A DNA stretch of 53,000 nt, taken from the NCBI GenBank assembly GCA_028870715.1, contig JAGWOZ010000004.1, forward strand, positions 1-53,000, in the 5' to 3' direction. The stretch is from Betaproteobacteria bacterium. Its GTDB lineage: Bacteria; Pseudomonadota; Gammaproteobacteria; Burkholderiales; Burkholderiaceae_C. The translations under genes were made by a program, and so were the position numbers. The notes below the pieces were generated by a model. It was not told where the DNA came from and made no database searches. It saw only the letters and a list, made by a program, of their open reading frames with translations. The stretch's first letter is position 1. The number at the start of each line of letters is the position of its first letter. This document shows, in pieces, positions 23,492-27,726 of this stretch.

Positions 23492-23518
23492 AAAAAAAAT
23501 GCCAAGCAGAAGCTTGGC
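23492..23518 (-). terminator. intrinsic terminator of the 74-aa peptide gene
   Basis: On the minus strand GCCAAGC-TTCT-GCTTGGC-A-TTTTTTTT (perfect 7 bp stem plus U8). Confidence 0.85.
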
Positions 23519-23565
23519 CAAGGGGGGAGGAGACAACAACCGGCACGTGACCGGCGAGAGCATTC

Positions 23566-23790
23566 TTAATCTTTTTTCTCGCCTTCTTCTTTCGTCTTTT
23601 CCTGCGCTTTTTCCGGTGCGGAGGCACTGCTCTTGGCCTCCTGCTGAGCGACCGTTGTGGCTTGTGCGGTAGTCTCGGCCGGCATTCCGGCAGCATGAGC
23701 CTGGCCCCACATCATCGAGGCCGCCAACAGAAGGGCGGCGCTCAGTCCAAATGCGAAAGTCCAGAGTTTCTTTGAGAAGGAAGGTTGCAT
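23566..23790 (-). CDS. small secreted peptide, charged low-complexity tail (unknown function)
   Basis: MQPSFSKKLWTFAFGLSAALLLAASMMWGQAHAAGMPAETTAQATTVAQQEAKSSASAPEKAQEKTKEEGEKKD: clear signal peptide with AHA-A cleavage; bounded by a sigma54 promoter-like site and a terminator. Confidence 0.7.
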   Translation of the reverse strand: MQPSFSKKLWTFAFGLSAALLLAASMMWGQAHAAGMPAETTAQATTVAQQEAKSSASAPEKAQEKTKEEGEKKD

Positions 23791-23861
23791 GGGTTCGTCC
23801 TTTATCTTGGGCTATCTGATCCAGGATTGAAGGGATGGATCTTTCTGCGACACCCTATCTA

Positions 23862-23877
23862 AGCACATTACGTGCCA
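23862..23877 (-). promoter_or_regulatory. sigma54 (-24/-12) promoter upstream of the 74-aa peptide gene
   Basis: Minus-strand TGGCACG-TAAT-GTGCT; GG and GC separated by exactly 10 nt; one mismatch to TGGCACG-N4-TTGCW. Confidence 0.75.
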
Positions 23878-24033
23878 GCATTATTTTCAATGCAAAATCA
23901 ATAAGTTATGAACGTTCAGGCAGGCCTGCTGGCATTGGTGCACAGCGAGACGCCGTTTGAGCGCCCCGAACGTCGCCTCAACCCGACGCTTTGCCCGGGG
24001 ATTTCGCAAGGAACTGTTTTTGCTCACCTATTT

Positions 24034-24051
24034 TGTCGCTTATGAACGACA
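24034..24051. promoter_or_regulatory. GlrR-type enhancer (UAS) inverted repeat
   Basis: TGTC-GCTTATGAAC-GACA, a perfect TGTC-N10-GACA, about 190 nt upstream of the predicted sigma54 start site. Confidence 0.6.
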
Positions 24052-24062
24052 ACGACACGTTG

Positions 24063-25412
24063 CTATTCGCTCGTCTTGAACAACGCCGGTGAAAGCGCGT
24101 GCTTTTGCAACAGCCGGTAGAACTCGGTACGGTTGCGCTGGGCAAGCCGCGCCGCCTCCGTGACCTGGCCACCGGTCAGTTTCATCAGATTGACCAGGTA
24201 TTCACGCTCGAAGCGGTCCTTGGCCTCTGCATAACTCAGAATCTCCGTCGGCTTATTGCGCAGTGCACGCGCCACGAGCGCGGCGGGAATGCGTACCGTG
24301 GTGCACAGCGCACAGCACTGCTCGACGACGTTCATCAACTGCCTGATGTTGCCTGGCCAGTCGGCGCGCATCAGCAAATCCAGGGCCTCGGGCGCAAAGC
24401 CGACGATGCGGCGTCCATGCTTGGGGGCCAGTTTCTCGACGAAGTGCTGCGCAAGCGGACCTATATCCTCGCGGCGTTCGCGCAAGGGGGGAATATGCAG
24501 GTTGACGACGTTGAGCCGGTAGTACAAGTCTTCGCGGAATTGCTGCTGCCGGATGGCCTCCTCCAGATCCCGGTGTGTGGCCGAGACAATGCGCACGTCC
24601 ACGGCGACGGACTGGGCCGAGCCCACTGGTCGGATCTCACGCTCCTGCAGTACGCGCAACAGCTTGGCCTGCAGCGCCAGCGGCATGTCTCCGATTTCGT
24701 CCAAGAATACCGTACCGCCCTGCGCCGTCTGGAACAAGCCCTTGCGCGCCGAATCCGCCCCGGTGAAGGCTCCCTTGGCATGGCCAAAGAGCTCGGATTC
24801 GAGCAGCGCCTCAGGAATGGCGGCGCAATTGATGGCCACGAACGGCCCGCGCCGCCGTGGACTCGCCTGGTGCACAGCGCTCGCCAGCATCTCCTTGCCC
24901 GTTCCCGACTCGCCCTGAATCAACACGCTGGCTTCGCTTGCTGCCACAAGCGCCACCTCGTCAAGCAGCGCGTTCATCAGCGGACTTGCAGTAACGATTT
25001 CTGGGAATCGCTGCTTCGCTGGCTTGCCCACCGCGGGGCTGCCAGTGCCTACCGCGCGTGCGAGCAACGCAAGCAGTTCCGGGGCTTCGAAAGGCTTGGT
25101 GAGGTAGCCAAAGACTCCACTCTGGGCCGCTGCCACCGCGTCCGGAATGGTGCCGTGAGCAGTGAGAATGATGACGGGCAGTGACGGGTCTGTGGAGTGA
25201 ATGCGCTCGAACAGCGCCATACCGTCCATTCCCTGCATACGCAGATCGGTGATGACAGCTCGCGGACGCGCCACGGCCAACCGAGCCAGCGCCTCCTCAG
25301 CACTGGTTACAGGCACCGGTTTGTAACCGGCCGACTGCAGCCGCATGCCCAGAAGGCGCAAAAGATCGGCATCATCATCAACCACAAGGACGCTTGGCGC
25401 AGTCACGCTCAT
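24063..25412 (-). CDS. glrR: sigma54-dependent response regulator, GlrR/QseF-like
   Basis: Receiver domain (VLVVDDDADLL, VITDLRMQGMDG, LTKPFEAPEL); AAA+ GESGTGKEMLAS, GAFTGA; C-terminal HTH; operon order with qseG and glrK. The start could be the upstream Met at 25424. Confidence 0.88.
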   Translation of the reverse strand: MSVTAPSVLVVDDDADLLRLLGMRLQSAGYKPVPVTSAEEALARLAVARPRAVITDLRMQGMDGMALFERIHSTDPSLPVIILTAHGTIPDAVAAAQSGVFGYLTKPFEAPELLALLARAVGTGSPAVGKPAKQRFPEIVTASPLMNALLDEVALVAASEASVLIQGESGTGKEMLASAVHQASPRRRGPFVAINCAAIPEALLESELFGHAKGAFTGADSARKGLFQTAQGGTVFLDEIGDMPLALQAKLLRVLQEREIRPVGSAQSVAVDVRIVSATHRDLEEAIRQQQFREDLYYRLNVVNLHIPPLRERREDIGPLAQHFVEKLAPKHGRRIVGFAPEALDLLMRADWPGNIRQLMNVVEQCCALCTTVRIPAALVARALRNKPTEILSYAEAKDRFEREYLVNLMKLTGGQVTEAARLAQRNRTEFYRLLQKHALSPALFKTSE

Positions 25413-25491
25413 GTCGCTGCGCACTCAAGCCTGGACGCAGGCGCCCCGCCCGGATCCGTTTCGGAGGGCGCCTTGTGGGCCCGAAAATCGC

Positions 25492-26115
25492 TCATTTCGC
25501 CTTTCCTGGCCTGCTTTGCGTTCGATCCTGCAATTCGACCTCCAAATTCTTGATCTGGCCGATCTTGTCTTGAAGATCAGCCACCTGCTTGTTGGCGCGC
25601 GCGAGCTCCGTGCGCAACTGAGACAGCTCCAGGGTCTGCCGGCTCAGTCGCTGGATTACCCGAATGAACTGAATCGAGGCTGGGTCATCCGTCTGCGTAT
25701 CCAGCTTACGGAGCAAATCCTGTGCCTGAGTGGCCTCCTCAGTGGTGGGCGCAGCACGGGCTATGAGCAAATAGGCCAATTTGAGCTTGTCGGCAGGGGT
25801 GCGCTGGGCACCGAGCGCCTGCAAGTGCTGCATTTCAGTATTGGCTGCAGCCTGCGATTCGACGGCGATCTTCCGCAAAGTGTCGCCAATCCACGCCATG
25901 CTTAACGGCTCGGGCTTGAACACGGACTGTAAAGCCGTGATGGGGGAGGACGCGGGCTGTACCTTGGATGGTGCACCGGGTACCGCGGCGCTTGCATGCG
26001 GCGGATACGCAGTGTCAGGCCGGGCAGGCTGCTGCAATGGAGCGCACCCTGCCAGAGCCGCAAACACGCTGACGAGCATAAGCCGCCTGAGCAGGAATTC
26101 GGTTGGATGTCTCAT
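25492..26115 (-). CDS. qseG: QseG/YfhG-like outer-membrane lipoprotein
   Basis: Lipobox LAGC; C-terminal coiled coil 'LSQLRTELARANKQVADLQDKIGQIKNLEVELQDR'; located between glrK and glrR as in enterobacteria. Confidence 0.65.
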   Translation of the reverse strand: MRHPTEFLLRRLMLVSVFAALAGCAPLQQPARPDTAYPPHASAAVPGAPSKVQPASSPITALQSVFKPEPLSMAWIGDTLRKIAVESQAAANTEMQHLQALGAQRTPADKLKLAYLLIARAAPTTEEATQAQDLLRKLDTQTDDPASIQFIRVIQRLSRQTLELSQLRTELARANKQVADLQDKIGQIKNLEVELQDRTQSRPGKAK

Positions 26116-26148: not shown

Positions 26149-27726
26149 TCAGCCCTTGTCATCGGAGGGCTGTGTCGAAACCCAGTCGGAAGAGGACTCG
26201 GGATCGCCCTCGAGTGCTCCGGCTCCTTCACTCTGGTCGGTATTCGCAGCAGCTGCCACCGCATGCGCCTTGCCTTGCGCGGCAGGCAGATCTGGGCGAA
26301 GTGGCAGATGCACGCAAAAGCAGGCGCCACCATCCCCCTGGGTCTGACAAAGTTCAATATCACCGCCATGCAATTGTGCATATTCCCTCGCGATGGCCAG
26401 GCCCAGACCGCTGCCGGTTGCGGCGGCGGGCGGCTGCCGGCTGCCCTGGAAGAAGGGCTTGAAGAGGTGAGCACGGTCCTCTTCGGCCACGCCCGGGCCT
26501 TGGTCGCACACCATCACCTCCACGGTCTCCGTTGCGCCCCGCACTGTGATGGCAATGACGCCGTTCACGGGACTGAAACGCATGGCGTTGATCAGCAGGT
26601 TTTCGAATAGGGTATCGAGCTTTCCGCGGTCGGCTAGTAAAAGGGGGGCGCTGCCCTCACGCTGCACGCGCAGCCGCTTGGCTCGCAGCGCCAAGTCATT
26701 GCGCCGCACGAGAGCGTCAAGAAGCGCAGGCAAGTCCACCCCCCCCGAGACCAGCGGATCAAGCTGTCGCTGTGCGCGGCTATAGCCGATGAGGCTCTCG
26801 ATTCGCTGCTGGAGGTCCCGTGCGTTACCGCGCATGATCTGTGTAATTTCGCGCTGTTGCGCGGTGAGCTTTCCGCCCACGCCATCGGCCAGCAGCTCCA
26901 CCCCCTCGCGCAGAGAGGCCAGCGGTGTCTTGAGCTCATGCGAAACATGGCGCAGGAAGCGCAGCTTCTGCTCATCCAGCTCGCGCAGGCGCAGGCGAAG
27001 CCAGTCAAGTTGCTGACCGAGGAATACAAGGTCGACTGGGCCCTGCACCCGTGGTTGAGGCTGCAGGTCGCCAGCGCCCAGCCGGCGAATGGCCTGGTCA
27101 ATCTGCCGCACGGGACGTGACAACAACCAGGAAAAGAGCGCCGCAATCAAAACGGACAAGAGGACGGCGGCTGCCGCCTGGCTGAGCAAGACCGTACGCA
27201 AGGTCTGGGCGCGGCGCGTGAGAGCGGCAACCTGGCTGTCCACCATGGCGTTGCCAGCGACCGTCAGCTGATCGGCCAGGCGACTCAAGGCCGCAAATTC
27301 CGTCGCGAAGGAATCGAAACGCCGAAGGCCGACGTTGGCGGGGTCGTTCAACTGCAAATACAGGGCTCTTTCCCGCTGGCCTATGGTATTGATCCGGCTG
27401 CTGTTGGAAGGACCGAATGGCAGCACGCGTAGCGTCTGCAGCGCATGATCGACGGCCTCGTGCGCATCACGCATACCCGCGCGCAATTGCGGGTCCTGCA
27501 ACACATAAAACTGGCCTGCTGCGCGCTGCAGCGTGGAGATGTCTTCGGCGAGTTGCCGTGTTGTGCGCGTCACCTGGACGGTAATCGCGATGGCTGAGCG
27601 CGTCTGTGCCGCCAGTCGCTCCTGAACGTAGGCGGTATAGCCCATGCCCAGCAAAAGCGGCAGCGTGACAAGCGCAAAACCCACCAAAAGAAGGCTGGAA
27701 AAGGAGCGCGGATAGGGCAGACGCAT
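26149..27726 (-). CDS. glrK: sensor histidine kinase, GlrK/QseE-like
   Basis: Two TMs, HAMP-like linker, FLRHVSHELKTPLASLREGVELL H-box, NLLINAMRFSP N-box, DQGPGV, GSGLGLAIAREYAQLHGG. Confidence 0.88.
   Translation of the reverse strand: MRLPYPRSFSSLLLVGFALVTLPLLLGMGYTAYVQERLAAQTRSAIAITVQVTRTTRQLAEDISTLQRAAGQFYVLQDPQLRAGMRDAHEAVDHALQTLRVLPFGPSNSSRINTIGQRERALYLQLNDPANVGLRRFDSFATEFAALSRLADQLTVAGNAMVDSQVAALTRRAQTLRTVLLSQAAAAVLLSVLIAALFSWLLSRPVRQIDQAIRRLGAGDLQPQPRVQGPVDLVFLGQQLDWLRLRLRELDEQKLRFLRHVSHELKTPLASLREGVELLADGVGGKLTAQQREITQIMRGNARDLQQRIESLIGYSRAQRQLDPLVSGGVDLPALLDALVRRNDLALRAKRLRVQREGSAPLLLADRGKLDTLFENLLINAMRFSPVNGVIAITVRGATETVEVMVCDQGPGVAEEDRAHLFKPFFQGSRQPPAAATGSGLGLAIAREYAQLHGGDIELCQTQGDGGACFCVHLPLRPDLPAAQGKAHAVAAAANTDQSEGAGALEGDPESSSDWVSTQPSDDKG

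Follow-up and report, generated by a model that had tools for sequence, protein, structure and literature searches.

A probable GlrR- and sigma54-activated small RNA gene directly after glrR in Thiomonas

The outputs known for the GlrR system are glmY and rpoE, both described in E. coli. We asked what is made by a short transcription unit that directly follows glrR on the minus strand of a 53-kb stretch of betaproteobacterial DNA (hereafter the window; all features below lie on its minus strand), and whether the lasting product of this unit is a peptide or an RNA. GlrK-QseG-GlrR systems occur widely across Pseudomonadota (PMC12691602), and the unit offers a defined, testable output of it in betaproteobacteria. 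An earlier note on this DNA had named an upstream activating sequence (UAS), a -24/-12 element, a 74-aa open reading frame (ORF) and a terminator, and we found all four where it placed them. It had overlooked a second UAS, a consensus site for IHF and a C-rich tract before the terminator, and the letters it gave for the UAS were the plus-strand version of a near-palindrome. For comparison we used the window genome and the 26 other Thiomonas genomes that hold glrR (n = 27); a close glrR was present in 27 of 28 genomes of the genus.

Three genes lie upstream of the unit, in transcription order a kinase, a lipoprotein and a sigma54-dependent response regulator. The sensor histidine kinase (26149..27726; Pfam HAMP, HisKA and HATPase_c) is GlrK/QseE-like: among solved structures, residues 5-477 matched 9m08_C best and over the whole length (E 3.2e-58), while the next-best structure covered the kinase core only (E 1.4e-23). 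9M08 is the structure of a QseG-QseE complex (PMC12691602). The lipoprotein between glrK and glrR (25492..26115; lipobox LAGC) had no match in Pfam or among solved structures; only its position and its lipobox mark it as QseG-like. The response regulator (24063..25424; Response_reg, Sigma54_activat and HTH_8) is GlrR/QseF-like, its best match among 112 NCBIfam families being NF011695 (GlrR) with 587 bits, against 440 bits for the runner-up and under the equivalog cut-off of 763 bits.

The promoter region that follows glrR holds two UAS copies, an IHF site and a -24/-12 element. UAS1 (TGTCGTTCATAAGCGACA, 24034..24051) reads TGTC-GTTCATAAGC-GACA from 24051 to 24034 and was kept in all 27 genomes; a weaker copy, UAS2 (CGTCGGGTTGAGGCGACG, 23971..23988), lies 63 bp from it. 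Across the genus these sites are of the type TGTCG-N8-CGACA, doubled in 26 of 27 genomes (63 bp apart in 22, 64 bp in four) and single in the remaining one. The window also holds an exact IHF consensus (TAACTTATTGATT, 23896..23908), which showed no mismatch in the eight genomes closest to the window and at most one mismatch in 21 of 27, where shuffled sequences led us to expect 0.4; it lies 31-32 nt upstream of the -24 element, or 44 nt in two genomes. The sigma54 -24/-12 promoter (TGGCACGTAATGTGCT, 23862..23877) has the spacing GG-N10-GC and was kept in 27 of 27 genomes, and its geometry predicts a transcription start at 23851, counting 12 nt on from the C in the GC of the -12 element. The window's own genome encodes RpoN, which over the genus was identified in 26 of 28 genomes. 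Because QseF at the E. coli glmY gene uses TGT-N12-ACA sites, IHF and sigma54 (PMC6075780), the Thiomonas promoter has an architecture of the enterobacterial glmY type, and its sequence leads us to infer that GlrR controls the unit.

This arrangement, with a UAS and a -24/-12 element directly after glrR, was found in all 27 genomes and, among 20 glrR loci from other Burkholderiales, in 14. A lack of such conservation would have spoken against the earlier note, so this result favours its proposal of a GlrR/sigma54 unit adjoining glrK-qseG-glrR. A composite pattern of UAS, 75-105 bp and sigma54 promoter occurred at 25 places in the 28 genomes, 21 of them at this locus, and its reversed control matched once; judged by this pattern, the architecture appears largely limited to the post-glrR locus. 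The UAS by itself was discarded as a marker since TGTCG-N8-CGACA was no commoner than its reversed control in most genomes.

The other end of the unit is still more strongly conserved. The intrinsic terminator (23492..23518) has a perfect 7-bp stem with a 4-nt loop, GCCAAGC-TTCT-GCTTGGC, followed by A and U8, and is the only perfect stem of at least 6 bp followed by T5 within the window. Across the 27 genomes its arms were invariant and its loop was variable. The invariant block CCCCCCTTGGCCAAGC (23512..23527) joins a C-rich seed (23527-23519) to the 5' arm of the terminator (23518-23512), and CCCCCCTTGGCCAAGC-N4/5-GCTTGGC was identical in all 27 genomes, giving 23 invariant nucleotides between variable flanks and around a variable loop. 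Four-fold degenerate sites of GlrR from the same genomes had a mean pairwise identity of 0.64 and a minimum of 0.44. When 20 syntenic loci (11.5-19.5 kb) were compared, this 3' element was the only stretch of the window of 14 nt or longer common to all of them, coding DNA included. It occurred exactly once in 27 of 28 genomes of the genus, while 93 other genera of the order had no copy; a search over 85,488 species placed it on 24 contigs, every one of which matched this genus. The unit is followed by a DEAD-box helicase gene in some clades and by a convergent gene in others, so conservation of the terminator is not owed to a shared neighbour. In the clade that holds the window and in the sister clade, the tract reaches further 5' as GGTTGTTGTCTCCT ahead of CCCCCC (23512-23545 in the window, and the corresponding place in the eight nearest genomes).

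Between promoter and terminator most genomes carry the ORF (23566..23790), which encodes a 74-aa exported peptide with a signal peptide, the cleavage site AHA|AGMPAE and a low-complexity tail of A, Q, E and K. An ORF of this kind was present in 21 of 27 genomes, each with a signal peptide and AGMP[AP][ED] straight after the A-X-A cleavage motif; AGMP was invariant in all 21, while the tail was variable across the genus. Ratios of pN/pS were 0.17, 0.35 and 0.62 in three clades, so the peptide is probably translated. Searches that included Pfam and NCBIfam gave no family for it. A weak match to BRANT (NF047414) fell under the cut-off and we ascribe it to chance, as the genome search gave no match in Thiomonas.

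The ORF was missing from the other six genomes. On the GlrR tree its absence corresponds to three changes, at least two of them forced by well-supported branches, and at each loss the promoter and terminator were retained. Sequence comparison indicates that an RNA of 71-144 nt is left in the three lineages without the coding part. The genomes thus show a conserved promoter, an invariant RNA end and repeated loss of the ORF, and because the 3' tail is invariant while the peptide has been lost several times, the lasting product of the gene is probably a regulatory RNA. The earlier note had proposed either the peptide or the transcript as the product; the RNA alternative, which agrees with the invariant 3' end, is the better supported, while the emphasis on the peptide does not hold for the six genomes that lack it. 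Its suggestion that the peptide feeds back on QseG or GlrK found no support.

We therefore consider it likely that the unit is a gene activated by GlrR, sigma54 and IHF that has been conserved for making a small regulatory RNA, in most species as the 3' end of a peptide mRNA. In the proposed mechanism, phosphorylated GlrR would bind UAS1 and UAS2 while IHF bends the DNA, and sigma54-RNA polymerase would start near 23851 and end after ~360 nt. In most species, that of the window included, this RNA would first encode the exported peptide of ~74 aa, which makes the unit probably a dual-function mRNA/sRNA in those species. The last ~35 nt would consist of a single-stranded UCCCCCCUUG followed by the terminator hairpin and U-tail, as in small RNAs of the Hfq type, with CCCCCCUUGG as the candidate tract for acting on mRNAs. 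The C-rich seed would pair with G-rich Shine-Dalgarno regions and probably block translation of target mRNAs, and the 3' part might perhaps be freed by an RNase. We give about even odds to a more far-reaching version as a whole, in which the unit is a dual-function RNA making both an exported peptide and an anti-Shine-Dalgarno sRNA that acts in trans, is a betaproteobacterial counterpart of GlmY by position and control and not by descent, has repeatedly discarded its coding part while keeping the sRNA, and occupies a slot after glrR that serves as a general site for GlrR cargo.

Predicted folds of the transcripts are compatible with a small RNA. The shortest forms, 71-76 nt (L028, L030, L031), start with a hairpin, leave AUCCCCCCUUG open and end in the terminator hairpin and its U-tail, the layout of base-pairing sRNAs. 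The seed was predicted to be unpaired at ~0.8-1.0 in these three and in L032, paired in L026 and partly paired in L006, L014 and L024. The short forms have, as Hfq-dependent sRNAs do, an unpaired conserved seed beside an intrinsic terminator with a U-tail, and the accessibility of the seed varies with the predicted full-length fold. Among full-length folds the seed ranged, depending on the genome, from open to partly or completely paired, and processing may matter for this reason; a role for Hfq and pairing in trans are likewise suggested by the sequence. An hfq gene was identified in 27 of 28 genomes of the genus and not in the window's own assembly, which is incomplete. Covariation lends no support to the structure because the stem arms never vary in the 27 genomes.

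In the main competing explanation GlrR controls what is essentially the gene of a small exported envelope peptide, and the 3' end is nothing more than its terminator. The signal peptide and AGMP[AP][ED] of 21 of 27 genomes and the within-clade pN/pS of 0.17-0.62 agree with this, as do the envelope proteins driven from the equivalent promoter slot in other genera, but the ORF is gone from six of 27 genomes by about three losses that left the promoter and 3' end in place, and a plain terminator needs no 23 invariant nucleotides that include an unpaired C6UUG. We regard it as unlikely. A doubtful candidate, ranking just after it, is that the C-rich tract and stem act in cis, by stabilising the mRNA at its 3' end, by binding a protein or by letting another RNA pair with this mRNA; the tract lies invariably at the 3' end and our searches found no genus-wide target in trans, but it is also kept in transcripts of 71-76 nt that lack an AGMP-type ORF and offer hardly anything else that could be stabilised or regulated. 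An operator or other DNA-level element overlapping the terminator, to which the invariant perfect palindrome CTTGGCCAAG might point, is very improbable, as conservation also spans the C6 on one side, the far stem arm and the T-run and leaves the loop free, and the site is single-copy and in most genomes hundreds of bases downstream of the promoter.

On the preferred reading, that of a regulatory RNA, the seed is complementary to Shine-Dalgarno stretches rich in G (AAGGGGGG). When targets were predicted in two genomes, using 400 kb of each with an overlap of only ~140 kb, nothing convincing emerged. The start region of ybjQ, with CCAAGGGGGG, could form 10-12 bp with the seed in five related species (-24 to -28 kcal/mol); this complementarity was confined to these five species of one subclade and was lacking in the others. 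In loci L245, L246, L247, L248 and L251, CCAAGGGGGG sits at the Shine-Dalgarno position of the ybjQ-family gene. A screen for AAGGGGGG upstream of ATG was rejected because it returned many sites, mostly within coding DNA, and favoured ordinary Shine-Dalgarno sequences too.

Several characterised systems resemble the unit in part. GlmY is a QseF/GlrR- and sigma54-dependent sRNA encoded beside qseEGF in Enterobacteriaceae (PMC6075780), and it shares with the Thiomonas unit the adjoining kinase-lipoprotein-regulator genes, UAS repeats of the TGT-N12-ACA type, IHF and a sigma54 promoter. The Thiomonas unit differs in lying after glrR and not before glrK, in its C-rich seed resembling an anti-Shine-Dalgarno sequence, in having an ORF in most species and in giving no match to the Rfam GlmY/GlmZ model at the gathering threshold or at E<=10. 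Activation by sigma54 is also known for the Qrr sRNAs (PMC10162802), and the shared trait is a small RNA gene that sigma54 transcribes with the help of an NtrC-type regulator, as predicted for our unit; the input system is another one, and our unit matched no Qrr model in Rfam and has an ORF in most species. The betaproteobacterial sRNAs S17/bdhR1 (RF02278) have an ultra-conserved C/U-rich segment near the 3' terminator, a precursor with a small ORF, Shine-Dalgarno-directed targeting and a housekeeping (sigmaA) promoter (PMC11722255). The first three traits recur here, the targeting as a prediction, whereas the promoter is of the sigma54 type, sequence and locus differ, and RF02278 was not matched.

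The Qrr sRNAs are controlled by sigma54 and LuxO in vibrios and are not known to contain an ORF. CpxQ is an sRNA from the 3' end of the mRNA of cpxP, which encodes a periplasmic protein. Here too the output of an envelope two-component system would be an mRNA that encodes a periplasmic protein and ends in an sRNA; the difference is that CpxQ is under Cpx and the Thiomonas unit under predicted GlrR/sigma54 control, and that for the latter processing and Hfq dependence are predictions. In its predicted control our unit is like GlmY or Qrr, but neither the GlmY/GlmZ model of Rfam nor RF02278 recognises it. No Rfam family matched it; SorY (20 bits against a gathering threshold of 111) and SorX (13.9 bits) gave weak matches under threshold and were set aside. 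Among the papers searched, none mentioned Thiomonas together with an sRNA. The unit suggests that GlrR gained an sRNA output from an unrelated sequence, and the genomes of the genus line up naturally from a coding mRNA down to an RNA that is purely an sRNA, with promoter and seed fixed.

Outside Thiomonas, we looked at 20 glrR loci from other genera of Burkholderiales (L099-L118), and in 14 of them a UAS and sigma54 promoter directly followed glrR. The cargo of this slot included glycine-zipper proteins (L111, L113), a BON protein (L110), MdoG (L101) and an OpgH-like glycosyltransferase (L104); it differs among genera and is mostly related to the envelope. Downstream of glrR in this set the promoter slot was kept across Burkholderiales while the cargo varied. 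Just after glrR in L112 and L114 we noted short terminated sigma54 transcripts (~95 nt in L112, ~63 nt in L114) that have CU-rich stretches and lack any complete ORF before the terminator; they are possibly independent sRNAs in the same slot.

Within Thiomonas the unit appears to be a main cis output of GlrK-QseG-GlrR, much as the earlier note had proposed for this system outside enterobacteria, but it is not the sole one. A second UAS pair with a sigma54-like promoter was found downstream of pyrE in at least three genomes of the genus (three examined; L192:4226-4430, L193 and L194:4433-4633), with UAS copies 65-67 bp apart. This promoter drives an exported protein with a BON domain in T. delicata, and in L193 and L194 it is followed by just a short ORF with a similar N-terminus.
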